DNA of 61,210 bases from a virus: positions 1 through 61,210 of IMG/VR virus record IMGVR_UViG_3300037247_000367; one strand, 5' to 3'. The notes under the pieces were generated by a model. That model saw nothing but the letters and a program-made list of their open reading frames with translations. It was not told where the DNA came from and searched no databases. Positions 7,208-50,887 of this stretch are shown here, piece by piece; the first letter of the stretch is position 1, and the number at the start of each line of letters is the position of its first letter. The translations under genes were made by a program, and so were the position numbers.

Positions 7208-7236
7208 AAGATTAGATGACCTTTATTTTTAATAAA

Positions 7237-15976: not shown

Positions 15977-16488
15977 CAGAAATTTGGAAAGATATATCGG
16001 GATATGAAGGATTGTATCAAGTCAGTAATTTGGGCAGGATAAAATCTTTGAATAGAATAAACTTAGCAGAAAGGAAATTAAAAGGTAGGATAAGAAAAGT
16101 ATTTGATATTGGTGATGGCTATATACAGGTTGTTTTAAGAAAAAATAATAAACCAAAACACTTAATGGTACACAGGTTGGTTGGTATAGCTTTTATTAAA
16201 AACCCCCAAAACAAACCTCAAATAAATCATATAGATAGCAATAAGAGTAACAATATAGCCCTTAATCTTGAATGGTGTACTGCATCTGAAAATCAAATAC
16301 ATGCTATAATAAATGGTAAAGTACAATTAGGAGAGGATAGGCAGAACGCAACAATATCAAATGAACAAGCAAGATATATAAGAACATTAAATAAAAACGG
16401 GTTAAATTGTGTAGAAATAGGAAAGAAACTAAATAAAACAAGATTTTTTATTTGGGACGTTCTTAATAGAACTTATAAGTATGCTTAA
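15973..16488 (+). CDS. HNH homing endonuclease with NUMOD4 domain
   Basis: A 171-aa protein with NUMOD4 start EIWKDISGYEGLYQVSNLGR, then HRLVGIAFI (HNH_3 first His), then INHIDSNKSNNIALNLEW, the catalytic N-H-x-D...N...N core, and WCTASENQ. The C-terminal ISNEQARYIRTLNKNG...IGKKL segment is an HTH for target binding. It is a selfish free-standing homing enzyme sitting at the entry to the sugar module, and may have helped that region move. Confidence 0.9.
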   Translation: MTEIWKDISGYEGLYQVSNLGRIKSLNRINLAERKLKGRIRKVFDIGDGYIQVVLRKNNKPKHLMVHRLVGIAFIKNPQNKPQINHIDSNKSNNIALNLEWCTASENQIHAIINGKVQLGEDRQNATISNEQARYIRTLNKNGLNCVEIGKKLNKTRFFIWDVLNRTYKYA

Positions 16489-17224
16489 TATTCCAAAATT
16501 GTTGGTTGCTGCTCCAACTTCAAACTTGAAGGATTATTGTTTTAAAGAATATGCTGACCAGCTAAGGGGCTTTACCTATCCTAATTACGACACTTATCTT
16601 GTAGATAATTCAGAGGACGATAAATACATCGAAACGATTTGGGCGGAAGGCATTGATGCTGACCATGTAACACCGGGCGGATCACCTATTGAGTATATTA
16701 CATTGTGCCAAAACATCATAAGAAACAAGATGTTAGAAGGCGGTTATGCTTGGCTGTTAATGTTAGAATCAGATAACTTTGTACCGAGTAACATATTGGA
16801 ATACCTAATGGGCTATGGCAACGAAGTACATACGTTCCCTTACTTTATAATGAACGGAGCAGATACAACGCTATGTATGCAAGGAACGCCCTCTAAGCTG
16901 GGTTATAAGCTGGGCAGTAAACTCCCACCTGAAAGCTCCTTTGAGATGTTTCAGGGTAAGGTAGATTTGATAGAAAACTACACGATAGGCAATGATTATG
17001 AGTTATATGCTTCGGGTACAGGGTGTACTTTTATTCACCGTACTGTATTGGAAAAGATTGAGTTTAGAATAGACAAGCAAAAGCACAGGGCAGCATTCAG
17101 TGATACTTATTTTTACATTGATTTAAAGCGCAATGGCATACCGATAATCATGGACACGACTTTAATCCCAATTCACAAACGCAGCAACGCATGGGCAACT
17201 GACATAACAGCATTTGACAAATGA
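16481..17224 (+). CDS. GT-A-fold glycosyltransferase (GT2-like)
   Basis: A 247-aa protein. KLLVAAPTSN at the start is the first beta strand, WLLMLESDNF (91-100) supplies the acidic metal and sugar-nucleotide motif (ESD in place of DxD), and GTGCTFIHRTVLEKI then FSDTYFYIDLKRNG is the acceptor-side region seen in processive-type and Anp1-like GT-A proteins. No membrane segment. First enzyme of the sugar module. Donor and acceptor unknown. Confidence 0.75.
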   Translation: MLNIPKLLVAAPTSNLKDYCFKEYADQLRGFTYPNYDTYLVDNSEDDKYIETIWAEGIDADHVTPGGSPIEYITLCQNIIRNKMLEGGYAWLLMLESDNFVPSNILEYLMGYGNEVHTFPYFIMNGADTTLCMQGTPSKLGYKLGSKLPPESSFEMFQGKVDLIENYTIGNDYELYASGTGCTFIHRTVLEKIEFRIDKQKHRAAFSDTYFYIDLKRNGIPIIMDTTLIPIHKRSNAWATDITAFDK

Positions 17225-17307
17225 CAGATATGATTATTGCGACATTGTTTATATTAGCAATCATTGTATTGGTTGAAGTTCTTATAAATAAATACACAAA
17301 GAAATGA
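17221..17307 (+). CDS. 28-residue membrane peptide
   Basis: MTDMIIATLFILAIIVLVEV plus a short basic tail (LINKYTKK): one membrane span with positive C-terminus. ATGA overlaps on both sides strongly suggest it is translated. Function unknown. Confidence 0.5.
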   Translation: MTDMIIATLFILAIIVLVEVLINKYTKK

Positions 17308-17774
17308 GCGAACAAGCCGAAACCAAAGAGGTTAAAAAGAAGAAGCCGCCATTTAAAAAAGACATTGAATGGTTATCAGATACTATTAACATAGCTAGTA
17401 TGTATGAAATAAGAGGCTTGCAAGGGCTGTTTATGCCAAAGACAGAGACGAATAAATCAGGTTTAGTACGAATGCAACCGCTTTCTTTAGGCGATGCCTA
17501 TACGGTAAATGAGAAAACCCTTGATCCATTAGCTACAAAAGTCATTTATAAAAGCAACGGAAAAGCAATTATTTTAGCAGAGGCATTGGATAATCTACAA
17601 AAGCAATTCGATAACAAGCCAACCGGAGAGCTTGATGATGGCACAATAGATATTCTTAAAGGAGCTATTTGTCCGGGTTACCATCCATTGAAATTTAAAA
17701 GACATCATGCAAAAAAAATAATAAGCTGGTATAATGAAATAATAACAGTGATTAAAAAAACAAACGATGAATGA
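17304..17774 (+). CDS. Hypothetical protein, 156 aa
   Basis: A basic N-terminus (KEVKKKKPPFKKD), a middle with PLSLGDAYTVNEKTLDPLA and a His/Lys-rich C-terminus (HPLKFKRHHAKKIISWYNEI). No recognised family. It overlaps the next coiled-coil gene by 8 bases, so the two may work together; whether they belong to the sugar module or to tail assembly is unclear. Confidence 0.55.
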   Translation: MSEQAETKEVKKKKPPFKKDIEWLSDTINIASMYEIRGLQGLFMPKTETNKSGLVRMQPLSLGDAYTVNEKTLDPLATKVIYKSNGKAIILAEALDNLQKQFDNKPTGELDDGTIDILKGAICPGYHPLKFKRHHAKKIISWYNEIITVIKKTNDE

Positions 17775-18201
17775 ACAGATTGAAATTCAGAAGCAACTTG
17801 ATAGGTTAAGGGACAGGGTGAAGTTTTTAAGGGAATGGATAGGGCATTTAAACAGTAAACTAAATGTATCTAAAGATGTAATTGGCATAAACCAGCCATC
17901 AGAAAAGTTTGAAATAAAGGACAAAATCTTTCAACTCGAAAACGAAGTAGTGCATAAAGAGTATCTTATTGAAATGCGGGAAGGCGACCAGAAGATGTTT
18001 GAGCAGCAAAGGGAAGCCATAATAAAACAAGTTGATAGAGATATGGGCGGATTGATAAAACAATTACGTACAAAGATATTGCCGGATGTAAAGCAGACAC
18101 AGATAGCAGACGGAATTATTAAGCGCTTTTCTAAAAACAGCTATAAGAACATGGAGAATAAGATAGCTGATTTCAGCATGGCACAGCAATTATTGAAATG
18201 A
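17767..18201 (+). CDS. Coiled-coil protein, 144 aa
   Basis: Heptad-rich N-terminal half (IEIQKQLDRLRDRVKFLREW, LNSKL) and a second helical region (KDKIFQLENEVVHKEYLIEM). Soluble, charged, no cysteines. Could be an assembly or scaffold factor. No family recognised. Confidence 0.55.
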   Translation: MNEQIEIQKQLDRLRDRVKFLREWIGHLNSKLNVSKDVIGINQPSEKFEIKDKIFQLENEVVHKEYLIEMREGDQKMFEQQREAIIKQVDRDMGGLIKQLRTKILPDVKQTQIADGIIKRFSKNSYKNMENKIADFSMAQQLLK

Positions 18202-18293
18202 TAACAACAGGACAATATTTTAATTACAATTTCGGCAAGTTATTAGCTTTGTTGGTTTTAACAGCCAGCTTATTATATGCCATATTTTCTTAA
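18198..18293 (+). CDS. 31-residue membrane peptide
   Basis: MITTGQYFNYNFGKLLALLV followed by LTASLLYAIFS: one C-terminal membrane span. ATGA overlap with the preceding gene. Second such micropeptide in the module. Confidence 0.45.
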   Translation: MITTGQYFNYNFGKLLALLVLTASLLYAIFS

Positions 18294-18298
18294 AGCAA

Positions 18299-18853
18299 AT
18301 GATATATACATTCATACCATACTCCATTGAAAAGAACCTGTACGATGAGTACAATCGTTATATGAACCTATTGCCTAACGATGACGATTTCGCTTGTTTA
18401 TTAGACCACGACATAATGCTCACTACGTATGATTGGTATATTCAAATGACCGAGATAACAAAAAACCAACCCGAATGCGGGTGTTTTGTAGCCACAACAA
18501 ATAGGGTAGGCGGTGAACGGCAGATAGCAGACGTGAAGGTGGATGATGATATAAGATATAACCGGCAAGCAGGGGAGCGAATAAAACAAGAACATGGAAC
18601 GCAGGTAGAGGATTTTACTATCAACAAGCCGCATGACCTTTGCGGATTTCTCATACTGCTGAAAAAGGAAACATGGAAGAAGATAGGCGGTTTTGAGGCA
18701 TGGGATAAGGGTAACGGGTTGCTTGGCGTAGATTCAAAATTGCACAGAAAATTAATAGCAGTTAACGAGAAAGTGTATATAATGAAAGGCGTTTTTTTAT
18801 ATCACTGGTATCGTGGCGGATCAAATGATAAAAGCCATTTAATATTAAAATAG
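18299..18853 (+). CDS. GT-A-fold glycosyltransferase (GT2-like)
   Basis: A 184-aa protein with ACLLDHDIML (32-41; DHD as the DxD motif), a Gly/Asp-rich middle and CGFLILLKKETWKKIGGF, then LLGVDSKLHRKLI, the ED-like acceptor region of GT2 enzymes. The N-terminus MIYTFIPYSIEKNLYDEYNR is typical of phage and capsule GT2 proteins that start directly at the fold. Soluble. Confidence 0.8.
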   Translation: MIYTFIPYSIEKNLYDEYNRYMNLLPNDDDFACLLDHDIMLTTYDWYIQMTEITKNQPECGCFVATTNRVGGERQIADVKVDDDIRYNRQAGERIKQEHGTQVEDFTINKPHDLCGFLILLKKETWKKIGGFEAWDKGNGLLGVDSKLHRKLIAVNEKVYIMKGVFLYHWYRGGSNDKSHLILK

Positions 18854-18861
18854 TATATTTG
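18854..18861 (+). promoter_or_regulatory. -7 box of homing endonuclease gene
   Basis: TATATTTG, a perfect TAnnTTTG match, lies 14 bases before the ATG at 18876. This selfish gene seems to carry its own promoter. Confidence 0.5.
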
Positions 18862-18875
18862 CAGAAAAGTATATT

Positions 18876-19397
18876 ATGGAAAAATTATGGAATCCAATCC
18901 CTAAATTTGAATTATATTATTCAGTTAATAAATCAGGCGATGTTTATAGTCATAGGTATAAAAGAATATTACATCCAATAAAACAAAAGCACGGGTATTT
19001 AAGAGTGAGGTTATATAATAGCAAAGAATATAAATGGTATTTAGTTCATAGATTAATAGCATTAACGTTTATCCCGAATCCTGAAAATAAAAAAACTGTT
19101 AATCATAAAGACGGTAATCCATCAAATAATCATATAAGCAATTTAGAATGGATGACACAGAGACAACAAATGTTACATGCTTATAAAACAGGATTAAGAA
19201 AAAAGTCATTAGGATCGAATCATCCCAATAGTAAATTTAACGAAAAAGATATTGTAAAAATAAAAGAAATGTGTTTTAATGGTGTTAGCCAAAGAAAAGT
19301 AGCTGCTATATATAATGTTCATTATTCTACAATAAATCATATTATTAAAAAAAGAACCTGGGTAGAAGTAATGACAAATCACACTTGTTATGATTGA
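18876..19397 (+). CDS. HNH homing endonuclease with NUMOD4 domain
   Basis: A 173-aa protein: NUMOD4 start LWNPIPKFELYYSVNKSGDV, HRLIALTFIPNPENKKTVNH, then KDGNPSNNHISNLEWMT (HNH core), and an HTH C-terminus FNEKDIVKIKEMCFNGVSQR. Same architecture as 15973 but different sequence, so an independent arrival. Inserted between two glycosyltransferase genes. Confidence 0.9.
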   Translation: MEKLWNPIPKFELYYSVNKSGDVYSHRYKRILHPIKQKHGYLRVRLYNSKEYKWYLVHRLIALTFIPNPENKKTVNHKDGNPSNNHISNLEWMTQRQQMLHAYKTGLRKKSLGSNHPNSKFNEKDIVKIKEMCFNGVSQRKVAAIYNVHYSTINHIIKKRTWVEVMTNHTCYD

Positions 19398-20178
19398 CTT
19401 AATAATCTTCAGTAAAGATAGAGCCATGCAATTACAGGGCTTGCTTAGTAGCTTAAAAGCTAACTGTAACATCTTCAACAGGATAGTTGTCATTTATGAC
19501 TTTTCAGATAAAGAATACGAGCAAGCATATAATGAACTTAAAAACGAGCAAGGTATAATATGGTTGTACGGTAACATTTCATTTAAAGACAGGGTTTTGT
19601 CTGCATTCGGAGATACAAAATATACCTGTTTCATGGTAGACGATTTGATAGCTTATACGGAGATTGAGAAAGAGCCAATAAAGGAAATGAAAATGTTAAT
19701 GGAAACAGGTAACATTTTCAGTTTACGGATTGGAAAAAATATAGGAAAATATCAGCAAGGAGAATTTATGCAAGATAATCATTATGAACATAGTTTTATA
19801 TTTGACTGGACGCAACAGAAGAAGTATTGGGGTTATCCTTTCAGCGTAGATGGTCATGTATTTAGAACCGATTTTATTAAAACCATAATTCAAAACGGTG
19901 AATTCCATAATCCTAACAAATTAGAAATAATTTTACAGCGAGGTAAGGACATAGCTCCTAAATACATGAGCTGCTTCAATCAAAGCGTTGTCGTAAGCAT
20001 TCCGATTAATAGGGTAAGCATTACCGCAAGTGCAAGTTTTGGTGAGAGATACCCGCATACTGCAAAGGAATTGAACGATAAGTTTTTAGCAGGAGAGCGT
20101 ATGGATTGGCAAGCAATGGATTTTAGCGACATAAAATCATCGCACCAGGAAGTGGAATTAAAATTCAAAACCATATGA
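19390..20178 (+). CDS. GT-A-fold glycosyltransferase
   Basis: A 262-aa protein starting MIDLIIFSKDRAMQLQGLLS, the nucleotide-binding start of GT2-like enzymes (F-S-K-D-R-A-x-Q-L). TCFMVDDLIAYT (79-90) carries the acidic pair of the metal site, and a WGYPFSVDGHVFRTDFI acceptor region follows. No membrane segment. It follows the homing gene with an ATG overlap. Confidence 0.75.
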   Translation: MIDLIIFSKDRAMQLQGLLSSLKANCNIFNRIVVIYDFSDKEYEQAYNELKNEQGIIWLYGNISFKDRVLSAFGDTKYTCFMVDDLIAYTEIEKEPIKEMKMLMETGNIFSLRIGKNIGKYQQGEFMQDNHYEHSFIFDWTQQKKYWGYPFSVDGHVFRTDFIKTIIQNGEFHNPNKLEIILQRGKDIAPKYMSCFNQSVVVSIPINRVSITASASFGERYPHTAKELNDKFLAGERMDWQAMDFSDIKSSHQEVELKFKTI

Positions 20179-20444
20179 GTTGGAAACAAAACAAAGAATG
20201 GAAACACTTCAAGCAAGTCAACACTGGCAAGATGGGTGTCATTGTCGTCAAGGTAGCGGAAATAATAATGAAAGAACTGGACAAGGACGTAGATATTGAC
20301 AAGATTAATGCAAAACAACTGATTAAGGACGCAGATAAATATGGAGAAGTAACCCGTATGATGGAGACATTCATTACGCAAGCAGTAAATGACTTCCATC
20401 CGAAAGGGAAAGCGTTTTTAGAGAACCGGGAAAATGCTGATTGA
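20175..20444 (+). CDS. Hypothetical protein, 89 aa
   Basis: Helical, charged product (starts MSWKQNKEWKHFKQVNTGKM). ATGA overlap with the glycosyltransferase gene. No family recognised. Confidence 0.5.
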   Translation: MSWKQNKEWKHFKQVNTGKMGVIVVKVAEIIMKELDKDVDIDKINAKQLIKDADKYGEVTRMMETFITQAVNDFHPKGKAFLENRENAD

Positions 20445-20462
20445 ACCAAAACATAAAAAACC

Positions 20463-20600
20463 ATGAGCGGAAAAAGAGCAAAACAACTTCGCAATAAGGC
20501 AAGAGATTTGACAGTCGGTATGCCAGAAGCGGAAACAAGGCGCATCTATAAGATATTAAAAAGCAATTATAAATTAGAAAAACAATTTCCACAATGTTAA
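20463..20600 (+). CDS. Small basic protein, 45 aa
   Basis: MSGKRAKQLRNKARDLTVGM then RRIYKILKSNYK. Starts of the form SGKRAKxLR are frequent in small phage proteins linked to virion or late regions. It overlaps the next start. Confidence 0.5.
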   Translation: MSGKRAKQLRNKARDLTVGMPEAETRRIYKILKSNYKLEKQFPQC

Positions 20601-21220
20601 TACCACTGATTGACCTAAAGAACAAATACAACCTTGACATAAGAGGCGTTATCCATATCGGAATGTATAATGCAGAGGAGTTACCTGCTTATCGGGAGTG
20701 CGGAGTTGAAAAGGTAATATGGATTGAGGCATTAAAAAAGCTGGCAGATGCAGCTAAATTGAAGTTTGAAAGCGATCCATCACAATGGGTCATAGAGGCT
20801 GTCATATCTGACAAAGAGGAAACGGTTGATTTTATGGTTACCAACAATGAAGCGTCAAGCTCTATTCTAAATTTAGGCACTCATTTGCAGCATCATCCGA
20901 GAGTGTGGGAAGAAAAACGGATTAAAGTCGTAACCTGCACAATGGAAAGCATCATAAACGGTTATGGAATTGATATGGTTGATTACAATTTCCTCAATAT
21001 AGATATACAGGGAGCGGAATTGAAGGCGTTAAAGGGTATGAAATATTATTTACAATACATTGATTACCTTTATTTAGAAGTAAACGAGGAAGAGATTTAT
21101 GAGAAATGCTGTTTAGTGGAGGAATTAGATGAATTTTTGTCTTATTTTAAACGAGTAGAAACCAAAATGACCAAATACAACTGGGGTGATGCGATGTACA
21201 TCCGTAAAACATTATTATGA
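20594..21220 (+). CDS. FkbM-family methyltransferase
   Basis: A 208-aa SAM-dependent O-methyltransferase. RGVIHIGMYNAEELPAYREC is the SAM-binding loop, and FLNIDIQGAELKALKGMKYY (about 132-151) is the FkbM hallmark (N-I-D-I-Q-G-x-E). Family members methylate sugar or polyketide hydroxyls. Context suggests O-methylation of a sugar in the glycan made by this module. Confidence 0.88.
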   Translation: MLIPLIDLKNKYNLDIRGVIHIGMYNAEELPAYRECGVEKVIWIEALKKLADAAKLKFESDPSQWVIEAVISDKEETVDFMVTNNEASSSILNLGTHLQHHPRVWEEKRIKVVTCTMESIINGYGIDMVDYNFLNIDIQGAELKALKGMKYYLQYIDYLYLEVNEEEIYEKCCLVEELDEFLSYFKRVETKMTKYNWGDAMYIRKTLL

Positions 21221-22029
21221 GACACTTTACAACCGTATGCGATAGTAACTATTTGGCTCAAGGGCTGGCTTTGTATCTCTCATTGATGAAAGTTAATCCT
21301 GATTTTATTTTATTTTGGTTATGTATAGACCAAAAGGCATACGAGATAGTGTCTAAACTCAATCTAAAGAATGTTATTTTAGATATTGCAGAGCCGTTTT
21401 TTCCTGTTAATGGATTTAATCACAAAGAATATTGTTGGTCGCTGGCTTCACGTTATACTGATTTTATATTTAAACTACATGGTATGCCTAACATAGTTTA
21501 TCTTGATGCTGACCTTTATTTTTATCAGGATTACGAACACATTTATAAAGAGATAGGCGATAAAAGCATAGGGATAATTGAACATAGAATACCTAATTAC
21601 AAAACCGTAGGCAAATACAATGTAGCTTTTAATTATTTTAAAAACGATGAACCGGGTAAGGAGTGTTTGAATACGTGGCAGCGATTAGCAAGTGATAAAA
21701 ACAATGAATATTTTAAGGAATATGGCAGTTGTGGAGATCAGAAATATCTTGAATTATTTATGAAATGGTATCCGTTGGACGTTCATATAATTGATTGCGG
21801 ACACGGGGCATGGTGGAATAATCGCAGCAATAGATTTTATGATGAATGTGTTATATATGATGGAAAAGATAAAAAACTAATCTTCATGCACTATTCGCAT
21901 TTTAACTTAACCAAAGATGGATATACGCATGATGAAATGAAAGAAATGTCGCCACGATTAAGGGAGTATTACGATAACTACGAAAAAGAAGTAAGGAAAT
22001 GCGAACAACAAATACAATCTATTAATTAA
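21217..22029 (+). CDS. GT-A glycosyltransferase (GT8-like)
   Basis: A 270-aa protein with MRHFTTVCDSNYLAQGLALY, the start typical of GT8 and related nucleotide-sugar transferases, and IVYLDADLYFYQD (93-105) holding the DxD metal motif (Asp97/Asp99). SCGDQKYLELF and IIDCGHGAWW follow as in family members that close the active site with a D-Q-x-x-L and a His/Gly motif. Retaining chemistry would be expected if the GT8 link is right. Confidence 0.82.
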   Translation: MRHFTTVCDSNYLAQGLALYLSLMKVNPDFILFWLCIDQKAYEIVSKLNLKNVILDIAEPFFPVNGFNHKEYCWSLASRYTDFIFKLHGMPNIVYLDADLYFYQDYEHIYKEIGDKSIGIIEHRIPNYKTVGKYNVAFNYFKNDEPGKECLNTWQRLASDKNNEYFKEYGSCGDQKYLELFMKWYPLDVHIIDCGHGAWWNNRSNRFYDECVIYDGKDKKLIFMHYSHFNLTKDGYTHDEMKEMSPRLREYYDNYEKEVRKCEQQIQSIN

Positions 22030-22039
22030 AACTGATACG

Positions 22040-22351
22040 ATGAAATCAAACGCAGATTACAAGCCGATTTTAGAATCGCTGAAAACCCTGAAAGCATCAG
22101 GCAAGGTGGATATTATATGGGAGGGTCGCGACTTTCGGGCAGAGGCTGAAGGGCACGAAACACAGCAAGTTGAGTTTTACGAATCAACTTGCCGGATAAG
22201 ATTGACTATTTATAAAAGCGATACTTTAAAAAGTTTGGGTGAAAAGGTAATTAAGGCAGAGGAATTAATGGATGATCTCGAAATGCACATTGTCTATAAG
22301 AAACAAAATCCTAATATGTACGAATTTCTTCATGCTAATTTAGAATTATGA
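22040..22351 (+). CDS. Hypothetical protein, 103 aa
   Basis: Alpha/beta protein with EATHQ-free, charged composition; segments KVDIIWEGRDFRAEAEGHET and YESTCRIRLTIYKSDTLK look like beta strands, followed by a helix. ATG overlap with the next glycosyltransferase gene. Function unknown. Confidence 0.5.
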   Translation: MKSNADYKPILESLKTLKASGKVDIIWEGRDFRAEAEGHETQQVEFYESTCRIRLTIYKSDTLKSLGEKVIKAEELMDDLEMHIVYKKQNPNMYEFLHANLEL

Positions 22352-23178
22352 AAATAGCTTTTGGTATTATAGTTTACAACGGGGATTTCGTTCTAAAGGA
22401 ATGTATCGAATCAATATATCCTTATGCAAGCGAAATATTGATTAGCGAGGGTTGTGTACAGCATTTCAAAGATAAGGGCTTTACGACATCCACAGACCGT
22501 ACCAATGAGATTATAGACAACTTCCCTGACCCTGACAATAAGATTAAAGTATTTCACGGCACATATAAAGAAAAGACCGAACAGTGCAACGCTTATATGC
22601 CTATTGATGCTGATTATCTTTGGTGTGTTGATGCCGATGAGATATACAAGCCCGAAGACATCGACAAAATCATAATGCGATTAGAAATAGAGGAGCCGAC
22701 ATCGGTAGGTTTTAAAAGCAAAACATTCTTTGGTGGCTTTGACAACGTGATAGGCGGCTTTGAGGCACGGGCAGAGTACAGGCGCATATTCAAGATCAAC
22801 AAAGAATCAAAGTGGGCGAATCACAGACCGCCACAGATAGATAATATTGAGGATGCAAAGCATATATCCGGTCAGTCATTAGCAGACAAAGGGGTATATA
22901 TGTACCATTACAGCTACGTATGGGACAGGCAGGTAAGGGATAAGGTTGAGTATTACAAAGCTAAGATCAGCAAGGACAACTGCATAGACGACTATTATGA
23001 GACAGTATTTAAGAAATGGGTAGATGGAGATATAATGACACGGAATATAATTGAGGCAAAAAATAATGGGGTACATGAATTTAAAACAAGTTACAGGGGC
23101 GATGCCTATACTGAAATATTTACAGGCGAACATCCTGAAATAATGCAACAATGTATAGCAAGAGAGAAGCAAAATTAA
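22348..23178 (+). CDS. Glycosyltransferase family 2-like enzyme
   Basis: A 276-aa protein: MKIAFGIIVYNGDFVLKECI is the classical GT2 start, CNAYMPIDADYLWCVDADEI (80-99) includes the DAD metal motif, and FFGGFDNVIGG then RIFKINKESKWANHRPPQI form the acceptor side. Resembles GT2 enzymes that work on lipopolysaccharide cores and capsule. Soluble. Confidence 0.85.
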   Translation: MKIAFGIIVYNGDFVLKECIESIYPYASEILISEGCVQHFKDKGFTTSTDRTNEIIDNFPDPDNKIKVFHGTYKEKTEQCNAYMPIDADYLWCVDADEIYKPEDIDKIIMRLEIEEPTSVGFKSKTFFGGFDNVIGGFEARAEYRRIFKINKESKWANHRPPQIDNIEDAKHISGQSLADKGVYMYHYSYVWDRQVRDKVEYYKAKISKDNCIDDYYETVFKKWVDGDIMTRNIIEAKNNGVHEFKTSYRGDAYTEIFTGEHPEIMQQCIAREKQN

Positions 23179-26360: not shown

Positions 26361-26385
26361 AAAGATTTTGTATATTAGCAATGAA

Positions 26386-27063: not shown

Positions 27064-27067
27064 AAGC

Positions 27068-28024: not shown

Positions 28025-28736
28025 GATGATATTAGATATAAGTTTCAATGGATTGGGCGATAGCTTGGCTTTCAGCACCTTGCCGGAGCGTTGCCATGAA
28101 AATGGAATTGACTTTTATTTATCAAATTCCGTAAGGAAATTACATGAAAGGAACACGCAAGTATTTGATATTGTTTGGAAAGCAAACCCATATTTCAAAG
28201 GATTTTCGGATGGAGAAATAAATGCTGGAAATATGTATAAGTCAAAGACATCACTTGAAGAATCTATTGTCTATCAAATGGAGCGAATGCACGGTTTTAA
28301 TCCCATAAACAAGTACCCTAAAATCTATATCGAACTAAAAGAGATGCCTGAAATTAAAGACATAACGCTAATAGACCTTAATAGTTTTGCAGTATGTAAA
28401 GAATTGTGGGAGAAAAGAGATTTGCTTGTTAAAAAGGTAGATGAGTTAATAGATAGTAATGAGAATATTTATTATACATACCTACAAGACAAGCCCAGCA
28501 AAATAAATGATGTAAACGCTATATTGTTAAAGAAGTTTCAGCCGTTTCCGATAGATTCCTTATTGCATTATTGTCATGTATTGAACAGCGTAAAGAATTT
28601 TGTTACGGTATTATCAGGGGCAAACGTATTGGCATCTGCGATAAAACAAGATAGGGATAAACAAATCGACACAATTATATGGGATTGGCTCAAGGGGACA
28701 TATTATTTTGAAAACATAAACTATCATACGATATGA
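28017..28736 (+). CDS. Putative GT9/heptosyltransferase-like GT-B protein
   Basis: A 239-aa protein. ISFNGLGDSLAFSTLPERCH at the N-terminus resembles the G-x-G-D motif region of heptosyltransferase-like GT-B enzymes, and VKNFVTVLSGANVLASAI near the end resembles their donor-site strand-helix. The middle is less typical, so this is a fold-level guess. It overlaps the epimerase and the following SDR genes, in line with a sugar pathway. Confidence 0.5.
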   Translation: MDKMILDISFNGLGDSLAFSTLPERCHENGIDFYLSNSVRKLHERNTQVFDIVWKANPYFKGFSDGEINAGNMYKSKTSLEESIVYQMERMHGFNPINKYPKIYIELKEMPEIKDITLIDLNSFAVCKELWEKRDLLVKKVDELIDSNENIYYTYLQDKPSKINDVNAILLKKFQPFPIDSLLHYCHVLNSVKNFVTVLSGANVLASAIKQDRDKQIDTIIWDWLKGTYYFENINYHTI

Positions 28737-29374
28737 AAATTCTAATCACAGGAGCGACAGGAGCATTTGGCAGTGAATTAGCTAAAGCATTTAAAGGGCA
28801 CGATCTTATCTTGCACGGAAGGAATAAAGATAAATTCCCAAATGTGAAAGCTGGAAAAATAAGCGGAGATATTAATGACCAATTAACCAGAATTAACATA
28901 ATAGGTCAATGTGAAGACATTGATGTATTTATAAATAATGCTGCGGTGTTTCAAAATTGCCCGTTAGATGAATTAAACATTTTGGATATTGAAACTATAA
29001 TCGAAACCAATTTAACATCTCCTATTATTTTATTAAAAGAAGTCATTGAGATATTCAAAAAAAGGGGTAGTGGGACGATAATAAACATCAACTCTGTGGC
29101 TGGCAAGATGGGTAATGCAATGGAAGCTGTTTATTGTGCAACTAAATACGGAATGAAAGGGTTTATGGATTCGGTAAGGTTTGATTGTATTCAAAAAGGA
29201 GTGAGAGTAATAGAGTTGTTTCCCGGAGCGATGAGTACAGGCATGGCAGCGTATAGAGAGGATTCGGAAAACTTCACCGATGCAAAAGAATTGGCGGAAT
29301 TTGTTACACATATAGTAGATACAAAAACATTTTTCCCGACAGGGATAGAAATACACAGAGCGATTTATGAATAA
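28733..29374 (+). CDS. Short-chain dehydrogenase/reductase
   Basis: A 213-aa classical SDR: TGATGAFG (6-13) nucleotide-binding loop, NNAA at 68-71, catalytic Ser121 (INSVAG), Tyr134 and Lys138 (YCATK), and PGAMSTGM after the active site. Likely reduces a keto sugar or a sugar-derived intermediate. It sits just before the transketolase genes and overlaps them by 8 bases, so it could reduce the two-carbon ketol product; that is inference. Confidence 0.85.
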   Translation: MKILITGATGAFGSELAKAFKGHDLILHGRNKDKFPNVKAGKISGDINDQLTRINIIGQCEDIDVFINNAAVFQNCPLDELNILDIETIIETNLTSPIILLKEVIEIFKKRGSGTIININSVAGKMGNAMEAVYCATKYGMKGFMDSVRFDCIQKGVRVIELFPGAMSTGMAAYREDSENFTDAKELAEFVTHIVDTKTFFPTGIEIHRAIYE

Positions 29375-30086
29375 GCGAAGCAAACAGGTACGAAGGGATG
29401 CGATAAAGCTATCTAAAGCCAACGGTGGGTATCATTGGGGCGGTAGTTTCTCATGTGCAGAAATACTTATTAGCTTGTATGATGAAGTTCTAACCGATGA
29501 TGATGTGTTTATTCTAAGCAAGGGACACGGCTGTTGGTGTTACTACGTCTTATTACGTGAAAAAGGGTTTAATCCTGTACTTGAAGGGCATCCAAGCTAC
29601 GATCCTGTAAATGGAGTACACGCAACTACCGGGAGCATGGGACATGGTTTTCCTTTTGGGATAGGGATAGCATTGGCAAAAAAGATGAAAGGAGAACCCG
29701 GAAAGGTTTATGTTCTAATGGGTGATGGAGAATGCCAAGAGGGTACTACATGGGAATCGTTGTTATTAGCGGTAAAGTTAGACCTTAAGAATTTAGTTGT
29801 CATTATTGATAACAACAAGATACAAGGTTCGGGATTTACGGATGATATAAATTCTATTCAAAGCATTTATAAAGTAGCTGAAAATATTGGATGGGAAACA
29901 TTTGGTATAGATGGACAAACTTATATGTTTGAATTTTTACCCCGCCAATCCAAGCAACCCATATTTATTATAGCCAACACAGTAAAGGGCAAAGGCGTAT
30001 CATTCATGGAAAACAAACCTGAATGGCATTCTAAATGGCTAACAGATGAAATGGAACAAAAAGCACTAAAGGAATTATGCGAGTAG
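29367..30086 (+). CDS. Transketolase-like enzyme, N-terminal (ThDP pyrophosphate) subunit
   Basis: A 239-aa protein with the ThDP fold: GDGECQEGTTWE (119-130) and DNNKIQ (148-153) form the metal-diphosphate motif, preceded by SKGHGCWCYYVLL and GHPSYDPVNGVHATTGSMGHG-type loops of transketolase. Split transketolase subunits of this size occur in bacterial secondary pathways and surface-sugar clusters, where they add two-carbon units to sugar nucleotides. The partner subunit is the next gene. Confidence 0.87.
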   Translation: MNKRSKQVRRDAIKLSKANGGYHWGGSFSCAEILISLYDEVLTDDDVFILSKGHGCWCYYVLLREKGFNPVLEGHPSYDPVNGVHATTGSMGHGFPFGIGIALAKKMKGEPGKVYVLMGDGECQEGTTWESLLLAVKLDLKNLVVIIDNNKIQGSGFTDDINSIQSIYKVAENIGWETFGIDGQTYMFEFLPRQSKQPIFIIANTVKGKGVSFMENKPEWHSKWLTDEMEQKALKELCE

Positions 30087-30565
30087 AATTTGGAAAAACA
30101 ATAGTAAGATTAGCCGAAAAGGATAGTAAAATTATTCTTATCACCGGAGATGTGGAACAGGAAATGAATGAATTTAAGAAGTTATTTCCTGACAGGTTTT
30201 TTAATATGGGCTTGTGTGAGCAGTCAATCGTTAGCATAGCCGGAGGGCTGGCATCGAGAGGGTTTAAGCCCGTTGTGTATTCGATAACCCCTTTTCTTAT
30301 CGAGAGGGCATTTGAGCAGATTAAAATAGACATTGATTACAATAATTTGCCTGTTATGTTAATCGGTTACAGCGATTACCCTACGCATGGGATAACACAC
30401 AGACCCTTAGATGCTGAAGGGCTAATAAAGATATTGCCTAATACAACAGGGTATTTCCCACGCAATGAAAAAGAAACCAGCAAGGCAATGATAGATGCTT
30501 ATTTAATGAACAAACCGGCAATTATTTGCTTAAAAAAGAATCCTAATAATGAACAATTTATATAA
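30077..30565 (+). CDS. Transketolase-like enzyme, pyrimidine-binding subunit, lacking C-terminal domain
   Basis: A 162-aa protein matching the ThDP pyrimidine domain: Glu48 in NMGLCEQS is the cofactor-activating Glu, followed by IAGGLASRGFKPVVYSITPF and YSDYPTHGITHRPLDAEGL (with the His-containing loops). Normal C-terminal subunits are about 300 aa and end with a third alpha/beta domain. This one stops after the pyrimidine domain, which is unusual. It overlaps its partner gene. Confidence 0.85.
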   Translation: MRVEFGKTIVRLAEKDSKIILITGDVEQEMNEFKKLFPDRFFNMGLCEQSIVSIAGGLASRGFKPVVYSITPFLIERAFEQIKIDIDYNNLPVMLIGYSDYPTHGITHRPLDAEGLIKILPNTTGYFPRNEKETSKAMIDAYLMNKPAIICLKKNPNNEQFI

Positions 30566-31614
30566 TGAACAAATACAGCAATTATAAAATAGCATGGTTT
30601 CCTGAAAAATTACAGTCATTTAAAGCTGGTCGCATTACTGCACCTATCTTTGTAAGGATAAAGCCAACAAATAGATGTAACCACGACTGCCCGACTTGTA
30701 TATATGAACCAAGTTTTATCGGGATGCACTCTTCAATGAGCAGGAATGATGAATTATCTGAAGAAAAACTATTTGAAGTCATAAGGGATTTACATGAAAT
30801 GGAAGTGAAAGCGGTATTATGGAGTGGTGGTGGTGAGCCACTTATGCATCCTTATATTTTAAATGCCTTTAAAAAAACAAGAGAATATGGAATGCAACAG
30901 GCACTTGTTACCAACGGACACAAATTAAAAGACAAGATAATTGAAGAAGTGGCAAACTTTGATTGGATAAGAGTATCATTTGATTATTACAATAAAGAAT
31001 CTTTTATAAAAGTAAGAAAAGCCAGCGAATCAGGGTTTGATAAAATACTAAAGAACTCAAAAGAGTTTGCTAAACAAAAAAATCCTAATTGTGATTTCGG
31101 CTCAAACTTTATTGTCAGCAAAGAAAACTATATGTATATGTTTGAAATGGCTTCTATGTTAAAAGATATTGGATTTGAGAATATAAGATTTTGTCCTTTA
31201 TGGATTACAAATTTAGTGGAATATCATAGCAGAATAAAATCAGATGTTTTAACCCAAATTAATAAATGCAGGGAAAGACTTGAAGATGATAATTTTAAAG
31301 TTTATGACAGTTATAATACCGACCCCTCATTTCAGTATTCATCATATAAGAAGTGTTATGTGATGCAGACCGTTCCGGTAATTGCTGCTGATTATAATGT
31401 ATATGCCTGCCATAACAAGGCGTATGACCATAGAGGGCTGATAGGGTCTATAAAAGATCAAAGTTTTAAGGAGTTATGGTTCAGCGAAGATGCTAAAGAA
31501 AGATTTGAAACGCTTAATCCTTTAACAGCTTGTAACGGACATCAATGTTCAAGCAATAAAAGGAATATTCTAATAACGGACATCATGGATGCTGGGGGTA
31601 TAAATTTTATATAA
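30565..31614 (+). CDS. Radical SAM enzyme with SPASM-like C-terminus
   Basis: A 349-aa protein. Cys38-x3-Cys42-x2-Cys45 (RCNHDCPTC) binds the 4Fe-4S cluster, and WSGGGEPLMHP (87-97) is the G-G-E-P SAM motif. The C-terminal Cys residues (KKCYVMQ, YACHNKAYDH, ACNGHQCSS) fit a SPASM or twitch auxiliary cluster. Such enzymes modify peptides or sugars (for example dehydrogenation or epimerisation). In this context a sugar or glycoside substrate is likely; a peptide substrate cannot be excluded. Confidence 0.85.
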   Translation: MNKYSNYKIAWFPEKLQSFKAGRITAPIFVRIKPTNRCNHDCPTCIYEPSFIGMHSSMSRNDELSEEKLFEVIRDLHEMEVKAVLWSGGGEPLMHPYILNAFKKTREYGMQQALVTNGHKLKDKIIEEVANFDWIRVSFDYYNKESFIKVRKASESGFDKILKNSKEFAKQKNPNCDFGSNFIVSKENYMYMFEMASMLKDIGFENIRFCPLWITNLVEYHSRIKSDVLTQINKCRERLEDDNFKVYDSYNTDPSFQYSSYKKCYVMQTVPVIAADYNVYACHNKAYDHRGLIGSIKDQSFKELWFSEDAKERFETLNPLTACNGHQCSSNKRNILITDIMDAGGINFI

Positions 31615-32201
31615 TGGAGTGCTGGCACGAAAACATATATCAGGCAATGATTGATGCGGCTAATAAAAGACCGCTATTATCTACTTATCAGGGTAAGCTA
31701 TTAAAGTCAATGATTGATAGTGTTGAATATGAAACTTGTTTAGATATTGGTTGCGGTACAGGACAAGTAAGTCAATTAATAAAAGGTATATATCATGGTG
31801 CAGATTTGTTTAATATCATTGCTAATGTAGCTGAAAAATCAGGATTTAAACAAATATATTTAGGAATTAATGTGGAAAAATATGATATGATATTTGTAAA
31901 TAGTTACGATCTTGTTATTATGAGTGCCTTTGTTGATGTTATGGAAAAGCCCTTAGAAAAGTTAGAAAGCATTTTAAAATATTGCAGTAAATATGTTATC
32001 ATTCACCGACAGGAAATATCACAGGAGAAGCCAACGCAATCTATTAAAAATCCGTCTTATGGCGGATGGACATGGCACTCAATAATCAACCGTAAAGATT
32101 TTGATAAAGCGATAAAGGGCTTTGAAATTCTAAAATTAACAACTTGTAAATACGAAAATTGGGAGGATGGGGGTACAAGCGTACTGCTAAAAAGAAAATG
32201 A
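31614..32201 (+). CDS. Class I SAM-dependent methyltransferase
   Basis: A 195-aa protein. CLDIGCGTGQVSQLIKG is motif I, and YDLVIMSAFVDVMEKPLEKL and KYVIIHRQEI are later strands. YGGWTWHSIINRKDF resembles a stretch of the methyltransferase at 24849. Starts on the stop codon of the radical SAM gene (TAATGG). Confidence 0.78.
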   Translation: MECWHENIYQAMIDAANKRPLLSTYQGKLLKSMIDSVEYETCLDIGCGTGQVSQLIKGIYHGADLFNIIANVAEKSGFKQIYLGINVEKYDMIFVNSYDLVIMSAFVDVMEKPLEKLESILKYCSKYVIIHRQEISQEKPTQSIKNPSYGGWTWHSIINRKDFDKAIKGFEILKLTTCKYENWEDGGTSVLLKRK

Positions 32202-33217
32202 TTAAATTATTTCATATACCGGATCATAAGATAGACACTTCAAAGTTCAGCAATTTGATATTTGATAAGATCGTTACTGAATTTGAACAGGCATTTGCTA
32301 AATACGTTGGTGCTGAATATGCGGTTGCGGTTAATAGCTGCACTAATGGCATCTTCTTAGCGTTGAAAAGTTTGCAAGAGAAGGTTGTCTGTACTGTTCC
32401 TACGCTTATGACAACAAGATTTTTAAGTGCTATTGAAATGGCAAATTGTGATTATGAATTTAGAGATATTCCTGAATGGGTGGGTGGGCAATATGTTTTA
32501 TGGGAACAATATCCTAAATTAGACCATAGCCCAAATCCTTTAATATTAGATTGCGCTCAAAAAGTAGAACCGAATATGTATTATCATTTAACAGATGTAG
32601 ATTACGGCTGTGATAAAGATATAATGGTATTTTCTTTTTATCCTACAAAGCCCGTAGGCGGAATACAAGGCGGAATGATAGTAAGTAATGACAAAGATCG
32701 TATTGATTGGATAAGACAAGCTGCACACTTTGGAGAAACGTTATCAGATAGCACAAATAGTTGGGAATCAACAACTGATTTTAAGGGATGGCAGATGTTC
32801 ATGGGTACTATTCCGGCTTACGTTGCTTTTGAGAACCTAAAAAAATACCCGGAGAAAAGGGCAAAACTTGACCATGTTCGTAATTATTATAACATCTATT
32901 TAGATAATGTAGTTACAAATAACTCATATCATTTATATAGAATAAGAACCCCTAACAACGATGAATTTCTAAAAAAGATGTACAGGGATGGAGTTGTTTG
33001 CGGTATTCATTATAAGCCCGCTCACTTGAATAAACTATATGGTGATATTTTTTATCCAACAATAAACTATTCCTGTGATAATGAACCATATACTCAAAGT
33101 TTACCTAACAGCGAAAAGGACGGCAGGGAGGTTGTAAGCATCCCATTTCACGAAAAACTAACCGACAAAGAGATAGACAAAATTATAAAATTATGTATTC
33201 AACACACGACCCTTTGA
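32198..33217 (+). CDS. DegT/DnrJ/EryC1 family PLP aminotransferase
   Basis: About 339 aa from ATG 32198 (ATGA overlap). Fold type I PLP enzyme: YAVAVNSCTNGIFLALKSL phosphate-binding region, LDCAQ (Asp118), and the PLP lysine Lys151 in FSFYPTKPVGGIQGGMI. Family members aminate keto sugar nucleotides to amino sugars such as perosamine or 3-aminoquinovose. It implies that the module also makes an amino sugar. Confidence 0.88.
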   Translation: MIKLFHIPDHKIDTSKFSNLIFDKIVTEFEQAFAKYVGAEYAVAVNSCTNGIFLALKSLQEKVVCTVPTLMTTRFLSAIEMANCDYEFRDIPEWVGGQYVLWEQYPKLDHSPNPLILDCAQKVEPNMYYHLTDVDYGCDKDIMVFSFYPTKPVGGIQGGMIVSNDKDRIDWIRQAAHFGETLSDSTNSWESTTDFKGWQMFMGTIPAYVAFENLKKYPEKRAKLDHVRNYYNIYLDNVVTNNSYHLYRIRTPNNDEFLKKMYRDGVVCGIHYKPAHLNKLYGDIFYPTINYSCDNEPYTQSLPNSEKDGREVVSIPFHEKLTDKEIDKIIKLCIQHTTL

Positions 33218-33234
33218 GAAGGCAGGTTTTAAGA

Positions 33235-33813
33235 ATGGATATTATCAATATACTCATTGAGAAATGTGGCTATAAAACCTATTTAGAGATTGGGGTTGCG
33301 AACAGCGATTGTTATAGATTGATAAATTGCGAACAAAAGACAGCGGTTGATCCTGAATCGTTATCAAAAGCCACATTTGAATTAACTTCAGACGAGTTTT
33401 TTAAAACCAATAAAGAATTATATCATCACAAATACGATATTATATTTATAGATGGGCTTCATCATTCAGGACAGGTATATAAAGACATTCTAAATGCTTT
33501 AAAAGTGCTTAATAAGGGCGGTACAATAGTATGCCATGATATGAACCCGCAAGGGTTTCAGCAGCAATATGTACCCCGTCAAGTCATGTGCTGGAATGGT
33601 GATTGTTGGAAGGCATGGGTTAAATTAAGAACGGAACGAAAGGATTTGGAAATGTTTGTTTTGCAATTAGATGAGGGCACGGCAATAATAAGAAAGGGCA
33701 AGCAGAAAAGATTGGTATTAAAAGAGAAAATGACCTATGATAATCTTGTTAAAAACAGGCAGGAATGGTTGAATTTGCAATCTGTTGAATACTTTTTGAA
33801 ATGGATAAAATAA
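33235..33813 (+). CDS. SAM-dependent methyltransferase (Methyltransf_24-like)
   Basis: About 192 aa from ATG 33235 (MDIINILIEKCGYKTYLEIG); an in-frame ATG at 33193 overlaps the previous gene and is a possible longer start. TYLEIGVANSDCY is motif I, and DIIFIDGLHHSGQVYKDILN followed by GGTIVCHDMNP is the pattern of macrocin-O-methyltransferase and cephalosporin-hydroxylase-like families, common in glycan clusters. Confidence 0.78.
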   Translation: MDIINILIEKCGYKTYLEIGVANSDCYRLINCEQKTAVDPESLSKATFELTSDEFFKTNKELYHHKYDIIFIDGLHHSGQVYKDILNALKVLNKGGTIVCHDMNPQGFQQQYVPRQVMCWNGDCWKAWVKLRTERKDLEMFVLQLDEGTAIIRKGKQKRLVLKEKMTYDNLVKNRQEWLNLQSVEYFLKWIK

Positions 33814-34013
33814 TTTTTTATATTTTAAATATTATTAATTGCTGTTGCGATAAAGAAGGGTATCCGTATTGGAAACAAGGAGCACGGGGCGGATGGTATC
33901 AGGTACACTGGATAGAACCAAATGAAGCATGGCAAGCCCTAATTGTTGGGGTTGTGTGTACTGTAATTTTTGTTTTATTAACTTATTGGATTGTAAGAAA
34001 ATGGATAAAGTGA
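33801..34013 (+). CDS. Small membrane protein, 70 aa
   Basis: A C-terminal membrane helix (ALIVGVVCTVIFVLLTYWIV) with basic tail RKWIK, and an N-terminal hydrophobic stretch with three adjacent Cys (NCCCDKEG). The middle, YWKQGARGGWYQVHWIEPNE, is Trp-rich. Function unknown. Confidence 0.5.
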   Translation: MDKIIFYILNIINCCCDKEGYPYWKQGARGGWYQVHWIEPNEAWQALIVGVVCTVIFVLLTYWIVRKWIK

Positions 34014-34645
34014 TTTACACAGCAATCATGGGCAATTACGATCAACTTAAACTGCCTCAATATATAAGCGAGGGCTGGGATTATATTTGCTTCACTGATA
34101 ACTACGATCTAAAAAACGATTTTTGGAAAATACGATACATTGATTCGAGTGAATACGGAGCAGCAAAGACCGCAAGGTGGATTAAAATTTGTCCTGAAAT
34201 ATTTTTAGATTGCGATTTGAGCGTATGGGTGGACGGAAATTTTGAGATAAAATGTTATCTGGATGCATTTATAGAGGAATATCATAAGGGTAATTTTTCT
34301 GTATCTTCTCACGGCAGGGATTGCACCTATGATGAAGCCCACGCCTGCATAACTTATGGCAAAGACAGGGATGAAATAATAAAAAGCCAAATGAAAGGGT
34401 ACAGGAATCAAGGCTTTCCTGAACATTTCGGAATGGTAGCCACAGGATTAACAATAAGAAATCACGGTATTAAAAATAATATTAAATTTGCACAGAATTG
34501 GTGGAAGGAGGTTAGGTTAGGAAGCAAAAGAGACCAGTTAAGTTTCAATTACACACTTTGGAAACACCCTATTGACATTAACATAATGGATTTTAACAGC
34601 GTAATAAACAAATATTTTATGTGGGGCAAACATTGTAACGTATGA
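34001..34645 (+). CDS. DUF616-type glycosyltransferase-like protein
   Basis: About 214 aa from ATG 34001. The order VIYTAIMGNYDQL, WDYICFTD, TARWIKICPEIFL, LSVWVDGN (73-80), GRDCTYDEA and SKRDQLSFNYTLW is that of Pfam DUF616 (TOD1/MUCI70 type), a family regarded as GT-A-like glycosyltransferases. The frame upstream to 33929 lies inside the previous gene. Soluble. Confidence 0.8.
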   Translation: MDKVIYTAIMGNYDQLKLPQYISEGWDYICFTDNYDLKNDFWKIRYIDSSEYGAAKTARWIKICPEIFLDCDLSVWVDGNFEIKCYLDAFIEEYHKGNFSVSSHGRDCTYDEAHACITYGKDRDEIIKSQMKGYRNQGFPEHFGMVATGLTIRNHGIKNNIKFAQNWWKEVRLGSKRDQLSFNYTLWKHPIDINIMDFNSVINKYFMWGKHCNV

Positions 34646-34806
34646 GATTAAAATTCAAATCTAAAATAGGAATATGTCCTTGCAGTAAACCGAAAGAGGC
34701 GTTTATAGTTAAAATGCACGATGGAAAAGAAACAGGCAGGGAAAGGATAGGCGAACCCTCGCCCGCTGTATGCCCATATTGTAATAAATATTGGAATGAA
34801 CATTAA
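34642..34806 (+). CDS. Small zinc-ribbon-like protein, 54 aa
   Basis: Two Cys pairs, ICPCSK near residues 11-16 and VCPYCNKYW near the end, in the layout of a minimal zinc ribbon. ATG overlap with the preceding gene. Function unknown. Confidence 0.55.
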   Translation: MRLKFKSKIGICPCSKPKEAFIVKMHDGKETGRERIGEPSPAVCPYCNKYWNEH

Positions 34807-34809
34807 ACT

Positions 34810-35028
34810 ATGTACACCGAAAAAGAAATACAATATTTAAAAGCAACGATTAATCTATCCCGTGTTAATCCTGAATGGATAAAAGCATTTGAGTATTGGA
34901 ATAAACGAAATACAACTCAATTAAAAGTAACTTGCAGGCAATGTTATTATAAAGTATTACAATACATAATACATGAAACTAAAAAACATAACACCGGAAA
35001 TGGTAAGCCGAAACGAGGCGACAGGTAA
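34810..35028 (+). CDS. Hypothetical protein, 72 aa
   Basis: Starts MYTEKEIQYLKATINLSRVN, a helical protein with TCRQCYYKVLQYI containing a Cys pair. The pattern IKAFEYWNKRNTTQLKVTCRQCY recalls small phage proteins annotated as tail or virion accessory. The last 18 codons overlap the next gene. Confidence 0.5.
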   Translation: MYTEKEIQYLKATINLSRVNPEWIKAFEYWNKRNTTQLKVTCRQCYYKVLQYIIHETKKHNTGNGKPKRGDR

Positions 35029-35695
35029 ATGGTCAATTCAGGGCTTAGAAAGTGAGCCGACTTACGAAAAAATACTCTATAACTTAGAGCATCAAATACC
35101 TTTTTCGTTGAGCAGGTATGGAGATGGAGAATGGAATGCTATTTTCAACAAGGCAGGGAACAACTGTGATGGACATGAATACTTTACTGATATGGGTGCG
35201 GAATTAAAACAAGCTGTACTATCAGAACCAGAATACTTGATGGGCATTCAACCATTAACCATGTCGCATTACAGGGATAAGGTTGTAGATTTTGCAGGGG
35301 ACTTAGATATTGATTGGGTAAATTCGGATGTTCTACATGACGCAAATATCAAGGAGCAACTAAAACGATTTTTTAACGTACTAAGAGACCAGCCCGTGAT
35401 AATGATAGCACCTACCAGGTTACAAGATGTACCATTTCATTATGGCAGATTTGTAGAAGTACCTTTAAAAAATTGTTGGTTAGAAAAAAGCAGAATTGAA
35501 AAAGAGTTATTTGAGGTATTGCCACAGGTAGGATATGCGGTTTTGTTATTTTGTGCTTCAATGGCAACCAATGTAATGATACATGACCTTTATAAATACT
35601 ACGGAACGCAGGTTACGATGATAGATGCCGGCAGTATATTTGACCCATATTGCGGTTTTAATACTCGGAGATACCACGAAAAAATGAAAATATGA
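34973..35695 (+). CDS. GT-D-fold glycosyltransferase-like protein (DUF1792-like)
   Basis: A 240-aa protein. FSLSRYGDGEWNAIF (44-58) holds the R-[FY]-G-D-G-E motif that defines GT-D glycosyltransferases (DUF1792 and relatives). VLLFCASMATNVMIHDLYKY and TMIDAGSIFDPYCGF near the C-terminus match the donor-site and D-x-G segments of this fold. An internal ATG at 35000 is an alternative start. It closes the sugar module, just before the tail-completion genes. Confidence 0.75.
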   Translation: MKLKNITPEMVSRNEATGKWSIQGLESEPTYEKILYNLEHQIPFSLSRYGDGEWNAIFNKAGNNCDGHEYFTDMGAELKQAVLSEPEYLMGIQPLTMSHYRDKVVDFAGDLDIDWVNSDVLHDANIKEQLKRFFNVLRDQPVIMIAPTRLQDVPFHYGRFVEVPLKNCWLEKSRIEKELFEVLPQVGYAVLLFCASMATNVMIHDLYKYYGTQVTMIDAGSIFDPYCGFNTRRYHEKMKI

Positions 35696-50833: not shown

Positions 50834-50875
50834 TAAATATTTAAAGAAAAAATGTTTTTATTTAAAATTATATTG

Positions 50876-50883: not shown

Positions 50884-50887
50884 TTTC

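Follow-up and report, generated by a model that had tools for sequence, protein, structure and literature searches.

What would a 61-kb phage do with a long run of sugar-handling genes set in the middle of its tail genes, and on which molecule would those enzymes act? The question is raised by IMG/VR record IMGVR_UViG_3300037247_000367, a virus of bacteria of 61,210 bases, the whole of which is the window analyzed here. An earlier note on this DNA had described a 19-kb glycan-enzyme module at 16481-35695, about a third of the genome, within the tail operon. The block is best explained as a hypervariable glycan island at a fixed tail-operon site of Bacteroidota-type phages with siphovirus-like tail genes. 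As to its function, the reading that we consider the best, at somewhat better than even confidence, is the glycosylation of virion proteins by phage enzymes in the host cytosol.

The borders of the block were set by gene order in the relatives, which runs TerL, chaperone, 16481-type gene, in some cases a 17767-type gene, 35692-type gene, 36311, 36802, 37947 and tape measure (genes are named by their start positions). The flanking features and the island are as follows.

14902..15633, + strand: tail assembly chaperone, upstream product; left flank, core (43-49% identity in relatives)
15537..15800, + strand: -1 frame extension of the tail chaperone (open reading frame (ORF) kept at the same offset in relatives)
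15973..16488, + strand: NUMOD4/HNH homing endonuclease (Pfam NUMOD4 1.9e-16; not in the gene order of the compared relatives)
16481..17224, + strand: core tail-operon GT-A glycosyltransferase (in every compared relative having the operon)
17304: small ORF, function not assigned
17767..18201, + strand: small core gene, left edge of the variable site (also at the empty sites of L116 and L117)
18202..35691, + strand: variable glycan island, 17,490 bp (in eight relatives the site is empty, in nine it differs in content and size)
35692..36189, + strand: tail-completion-type gene; right flank, core (conserved in relatives)

The tail-chaperone reading of 14902-15800 holds, as the -1 frameshift heptamer T_TTT_TTA lies at 15552 in the correct frame and is kept in four relatives. 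Relatives of 35692 were found by alignment search, a single-sequence search having given none. Because 16481 and 17767 are present even in relatives without the block, they belong to the tail-operon core and lie outside it. The presence of a glycan block in the tail operon is therefore upheld, while its borders move to 18202-35691 and its share to 28.6% of the record. The listed ORFs cover 16,863 bp of it (96% coding). The junctions are tight, as had been noticed before: 22 of the 29 between 16481 and 35695 overlap or are at most 10 bp apart, and two short ORFs fill the 327-bp gap before 34973. Cotranscription with the virion genes is supported by this packing, which is its basis rather than transcripts.

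The distance between the 16481-type and the 35692-type gene was measured in 17 contigs. The site is empty in eight of them (-4 to 472 bp, the larger values reflecting a 17767-type gene), and the 35692-type gene there lies near the left core gene or overlaps it. Glycan islands of 5.4-8.2 kb occupy it in five (L154, which is the same contig as L114, L201, L162, L137 and L141), and a non-glycan insert is held by the other four (L138, L140, L142 and L143), that of L138 including a 1,129-residue protein. A sixth glycan island, with its left end cut, was found in L115. The kit of L137 and L141 is different and comprises, by sequence reading and not by family search, glycosyltransferases, sulfotransferase-like and acyltransferase-like proteins and a split asparagine-synthase-like pair (L137 13869-15288, L141 13968-15407). 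When five tail-region proteins were placed in an unrooted tree, the empty sites grouped as a single clade (support 100), a result compatible with one loss or several gains. Around TerL, no comparable island was seen in the stretches read of the named Bacteroidota phages Versailles, 11b, P12002L, phi10:1 and BS-TP3, the last of which has a similar compact TerL-to-tail order without an island.

These alleles bear directly on the possibility, named by the earlier note as fatal to its claim, that bacterial glycan genes were joined to a phage by assembly. The record is metagenomic and a DNA search of the named phage collection with it gave no match, as a chimera could have it. This explanation is rejected and effectively refuted because an independent contig (L114/L154) spans both junctions of a sister island, related islands occur in further contigs and GC is even across the region, at about 0.33-0.37. 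Related phages have nothing, glycan genes or other genes at this junction, so the block is a swappable locus. The set had also been called unusual for a 61-kb genome; this fits the relatives, which hold 0-8.2 kb at the site, but large phage glycan clusters as such are already known.

Within the island the following features were read.

18299..18853, + strand: glycosyltransferase, island core module (PHROG 14179 glycosyltransferase, 1.5e-19; homologues in sister islands)
18876..19397, + strand: HNH/NUMOD4 homing endonuclease (Pfam HNH_3 1e-11)
19390..20178, + strand: conserved island protein, claimed glycosyltransferase (36-39% in sister islands; no family match)
20175 and 22040: small ORFs, function not assigned
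20594..21220, + strand: FkbM methyltransferase (Pfam 1.9e-11)
21217..22029, + strand: possible glycosyltransferase, weak (Nucleotid_trans E 0.058, under cut-off)
22348..23178, + strand: GT2 glycosyltransferase (Pfam 2.7e-8)
23151: claimed methyltransferase, no convincing match
23606..24043, + strand: putative small sulfotransferase (PHROG galactose-3-O-sulfotransferase, E 2.8e-4 over 22 residues)
24043..24852, + strand: FkbM methyltransferase (Pfam 1.9e-8)
24849..25580, + strand: weak class I methyltransferase (Methyltransf_31 0.0022 and TIGR04325 8.6e-6, both under cut-off)
25581..26360, + strand: GT11, alpha-1,2-fucosyltransferase family (Pfam 2.2e-7)
26368..27063, + strand: GIY-YIG/NUMOD3 homing endonuclease, directly before the next gene (Pfam)
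27068..28024, + strand: predicted GDP-mannose 3,5-epimerase, GME (2c59, plant GME, 1.6e-86)
28017..28736, + strand: claimed glycosyltransferase (no match to a glycosyltransferase family)
28733..29374, + strand: short-chain dehydrogenase, SDR (Pfam adh_short 2.7e-35)
29367..30086, + strand: transketolase N subunit, tktN (Pfam 1.3e-22)
30077..30565, + strand: transketolase C (pyrimidine-binding) subunit, tktC (Pfam 4e-19)
30565..31614, + strand: radical SAM/SPASM enzyme (Pfam 3.6e-16 and 1.2e-6)
31614..32201, + strand: class I methyltransferase (Methyltransf_11 1.3e-4, above cut-off)
32198..33217, + strand: DegT/DnrJ/EryC1 aminotransferase (Pfam 6.7e-31)
33193..33813, + strand: Methyltransf_24, island core module (Pfam 2.7e-11; recurs with the glycosyltransferase and GT-D genes)
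33929..34645, + strand: TOD1/MUCI70 glycosyltransferase, island core module (Pfam 4e-16)
34973..35695, + strand: predicted GT-D glycosyltransferase, island core module, right edge (24-member profile)

Six of the nine glycosyltransferases claimed earlier are supported (16481, 18299, 22348, 25581, 33929 and 34973); 19390 and 28017 gave no family match and 21217 stayed sub-threshold. A structure model of 19390 was discarded at a pLDDT of 48. Four or five of the six methyltransferases stand, since 20594, 24043, 31614 and 33193 pass the Pfam cut-offs, 24849 is weak and 23151 does not convince. The family match of the sulfotransferase 23606 is weak, but its homologues occur in sister islands at 45-60%. 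All six sugar-metabolism enzymes were confirmed by family matches. Among them 27068, whose specific identity had been missed, is by its sequence a GDP-mannose 3,5-epimerase: it resembles the plant enzyme over its full length and keeps the motifs SSACIYP, YGLEK, EKAPAALCRK and EGVRGRNSDN. To call the set a nearly self-contained pathway was too strong, as the genes identified include neither a nucleotidyltransferase nor a sugar kinase, so that the host must supply GDP-mannose, PAPS and other such donors.

Two glycosyltransferases carry most of the argument on the acceptor. The AlphaFold2 (AF2) prediction of 16481 has a pLDDT of 88.5 and a GT-A fold, and its nearest Foldseek neighbours in the PDB include mimivirus R699, COLGALT1/LH3 and CgT, with E down to 1.4e-10. 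D98 and H232 are invariant in 19 sequences, and an E-S/T-D motif and the C-terminal His are kept. The model thus supports a GT-A glycosyltransferase with a metal-binding D-x-D-type motif. That 34973 is a GT-D glycosyltransferase, which had been missed, is supported by a 24-member profile of its family (4phr/4pfx GalT1 at 5e-7, 5v4a at 8e-6) and by D51-G52-E53, a D-x-E motif invariant in 24 sequences; Pfam GT-D matches 10 of the 24 members, and 34973 alone is under the Pfam cut-off. The family is largely viral, with 82 IMG/VR stretches vs 5 in 84,980 cellular genomes, the two search patterns being slightly different. Protein searches of named phages with 34973 and 16481 gave no match.

Selection at the locus was read from L201 and L162, two close relatives (the same contigs as L132 and L133, respectively), by the Nei-Gojobori method. 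The dN/dS of the island genes is 0.022-0.072, and that of the tail genes is 0.010-0.042 for most and 0.083 for the 17767-type gene. The island is therefore under strong purifying selection like the tail genes, and is maintained and not decaying. An extra FkbM gene in L162, with none in L201, indicates fast gene turnover.

These values weigh on the idea that homing endonucleases have spread the block as selfish cargo or filler, with no function in the phage at present. There is something to recommend it: three homing endonucleases, all missed before, lie in or at the block (HNH at 15973 and 18876, GIY-YIG at 26368), and "stuffer DNA" has been considered for cyanophages (PMC3037559). The GIY-YIG gene adjoins GME also in another phage, L239 (53%), and a remnant is seen in L234, which suggests endonuclease-linked spread. 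The purifying selection on the island genes weakens this idea and the composition of the modules is conserved across phages, so we regard it as very unlikely.

The genes of the block were then followed in other phages, where two layers can be told apart, a core set and donor-sugar cassettes. The core set, consisting of 18299, 33929, 34973 and 33193 and sometimes 23606, recurs in order, and in the unrelated phages L158 and L159 it stands between TerL and a portal-type gene. The cultured Cellulophaga phage phi12:1 has a Methyltransf_24 gene and a fused TOD1/18299-type gene between its minor capsid and protease genes; PHROG 26101 is likewise a fusion, its first half matching 33929 and its second half 18299. 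A virion gene could be recognised within 6 kb, on the same strand in all cases, at 17 of 79 GT-D loci, which are not 17 independent events because several are near-duplicates, compared with 1 in 41 (GME) and 2 in 32 (tktN). The donor-sugar cassettes elsewhere are mostly not near recognisable virion genes. GME was found in 41 contigs and tktN in 32 IMG/VR phage contigs (L082-L113) at up to 64% identity, paired with tktC in 28 of the 32 and followed by an SDR gene after tktN-tktC in 16. The radical SAM gene adjoins tktN in L088 and L108. A 735-kb uncultured phage has a radical SAM/SPASM homologue (46%) near an epimerase (L281 9001-10041).

Taken with the flanks, in which the frameshift chaperone and tail genes adjoin the island on the same strand with overlapping junctions, these observations were weighed against the prevailing view of large phage glycan clusters, that of host-surface remodelling (PMC7029224, PMC7824862, PMC9602691). 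According to it, LPS or capsule would be altered during infection to shut out competing phages or mask receptors, a role put forward for the clusters of cyanophages and pelagiphages. FkbM, DegT and epimerase families are indeed common in polysaccharide loci, and pelagimyophage glycan genes too sit near tail fibres. However, no membrane glycosyltransferase, flippase, polymerase or polyprenol enzyme was detected in the block, nor any convincing transmembrane protein or lipid-carrier gene; the core module occupies both head and tail operons of unrelated phages; and a late operon position would leave little time to change a surface. It is the main rival, and we hold it to be unlikely though deserving serious weight. 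Gtr-type O-antigen conversion (gtrABC) was tried as a candidate and rejected, as the block has no GtrA flippase, GtrB polyprenol glucosyltransferase, membrane glucosyltransferase or convincing transmembrane protein.

The absence of convincing transmembrane proteins and of lipid-carrier genes from the block, the virion-gene position in unrelated phages and the protein-acting relatives of its GT-D and GT-A enzymes favour cytosolic virion glycosylation. GalT1/dGT1, the GT-D match, glucosylates a protein adhesin (PMC5063993), and 16481 resembles protein (collagen) glycosyltransferases and CgT, which is the other half of dGT1. Glycosylation of capsid and tail-tube proteins by phage enzymes is established for mycobacteriophages (PMC12363180 and PMC12619734, citing Freeman 2023).

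The proposed course of events is as follows. The island would be made late, together with the virion proteins, and soluble glycosyltransferases would build a glycan sugar by sugar on one or more virion proteins, of tail or head, in the host cytosol, by analogy with the O-glycosylation of streptococcal serine-rich adhesins. The core GT-A enzyme 16481, kept at empty sites, may start the chain, which 18299, 33929, 34973 and 33193 would extend and cap; methyl- and sulfotransferases would cap the glycan. The accessory cassettes would change the sugars: GME may act on GDP-mannose of the host to yield GDP-L-galactose (or GDP-L-gulose), which the neighbouring GT11 enzyme might use as its donor, and the SDR, transketolase, radical SAM and DegT set may make a modified sugar. 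A swap of kits would alter the surface coat of the particle and hence adsorption, stability or recognition. That the acceptor is a virion protein we infer, together with its identity, the structure of the sugar and the benefit to the phage.

Several points speak against this reading. Virion glycosylation is here a prediction from genes, no glycan, acceptor protein or transcript having been observed, and among the tail genes none stood out as an acceptor by being rich in Ser/Thr or extended at the C terminus. At 62 of the 79 GT-D loci no virion gene was recognisable nearby with the limited query set used. The solved structures that match 16481 mostly reach TM 0.5-0.67 and do not tell which acceptor it uses. 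Surface polysaccharides, too, have FkbM, DegT, SDR and GT2 among their typical enzyme families, the membrane steps could come from the transport machinery of the host, and phage structural operons also carry non-virion morons.

In another explanation the products of the block would synthesize a small metabolite derived from sugar, or act on a protein outside the virion, with the structural operon serving only for their expression. The radical SAM enzyme, the split transketolase and DegT together hint at an unusual product, and cyanophage clusters have been given a secondary-metabolite reading (PMC7824862). A polymer or conjugate is indicated instead by the six or more glycosyltransferases and the several methyltransferases, and the transketolase and radical SAM genes are not in the sister islands; we judge it improbable. 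Hypermodification of DNA has still less to support it and is hardly to be expected. Phage glycosyltransferases can glycosylate DNA (Pyle 2024, as cited in PMC12619734), but no hydroxymethylase or base-modification gene was seen among the window ORFs scanned, which did not include every small ORF, and the island lies among tail genes and not replication genes.

Virion glycosylation in the cytosol being preferred, we put forward more tentatively, and at rather less than even confidence, the full picture of a modular virion-glycosylation locus: whole kits (0 to 17.5 kb) would be swapped at the fixed tail-operon site to give lineage-specific coats, one of them with predicted L-galactose via GME, and unrelated phages would have had the same core placed, independently, within their head operons.

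Precedents exist for large phage glycan clusters, for GME in a phage and for glycosylated virions. P-SSM2 carries a 15-gene glycan cluster (PMC7824862) and S-SCSM1 carries GME plus fucosyltransferases (PMC9602691). Like the block, the clusters of T4-like cyanophages (P-SSM2, S-SSM7, S-SCSM1) combine many contiguous glycosyltransferases with methyltransferases and epimerases, and S-SCSM1 has GME (50%), a GT11-like fucosyltransferase and a TOD1-type glycosyltransferase together. They differ in that their genomes are mostly about 175-245 kb, that they lie near hli/phoH and tRNA genes (PMC3037559) and not at a tail-operon site, and that no split transketolase or radical SAM gene was present in the stretch read. 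The present phage, with 61 kb, siphovirus-like tail genes and TerL relatives in Bacteroidota phages, is not a large T4-like myovirus. The mycobacteriophages Che8, Corndog and Myrna share phage-encoded glycosyltransferases with the block, whose own enzymes are predicted to be soluble. Mycobacteriophage virion glycosylation uses few enzymes, whereas a large island with donor-sugar synthesis is found here. In Cellulophaga phi12:1, phi17:1 and phi18:1, Methyltransf_24 beside the fused TOD1 and 18299-type glycosyltransferase lies in head genes, but these are only two genes of putative function in a different phage group. The serine-rich adhesin system (Fap1, dGT1) has cytosolic sequential glycosyltransferases with GT-D and GT-A domains (PMC5063993); it serves a bacterial adhesin with dedicated secretion, and the likeness is at family or fold level only. 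It serves as an analogy, as no strongly Ser/Thr-rich acceptor was seen in the tail genes and no secretion gene in the block. In the open-access literature we found no description of a fixed tail-operon site whose alleles are empty or swapped, nor of a recurrent virion-operon core, which is not proof of absence.

The phage nature of the record is evident from TerL (10553-11941), the tape measure (40622-43594), protease (44421-45488) and portal (47294-48574). A Bacteroidota host is likely, as the best TerL matches among named phages are mainly phages of Bacteroides, Flavobacterium, Cellulophaga and Polaribacter; a search with the Bacteroidota promoter pattern gave four matches, which is chance level. 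Both ends of the record share a 143-bp repeat with two mismatches, sitting in a short-repeat array, so that the record is probably, though not certainly, close to a complete genome. The ends (1-537 and 61068-61210) fall in one gene of GDARVYGNA-type repeats, which may have caused the assembly break. Six HNH or GIY-YIG/T5orf172 endonuclease-like genes were seen in the window (7216-7812; 7809-8174, which scores under the Pfam cut-off; 9678-10154; 15973-16488; 18876-19397; 26368-27063). The early region has a SpoU-type rRNA methylase domain (5462-5917), and the right arm has a TnpB-type gene (OrfB_IS605 / Cas12f1-like TNB, 50852-52030) and a DDE transposase (55603-56841). Phage genomes do not commonly carry insertion sequences.

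Large phage glycan clusters are usually read as host-surface tools from their gene content alone, and here the position of the genes adds evidence. The placement of the island and its swapping suggest that the phage covers its own particle with sugars of its making and varies this coat. The target of such clusters becomes answerable with virions already in culture, those of the Cellulophaga phages, and if the particle is the target, phages would have interchangeable coats comparable to the O-antigens of bacteria.

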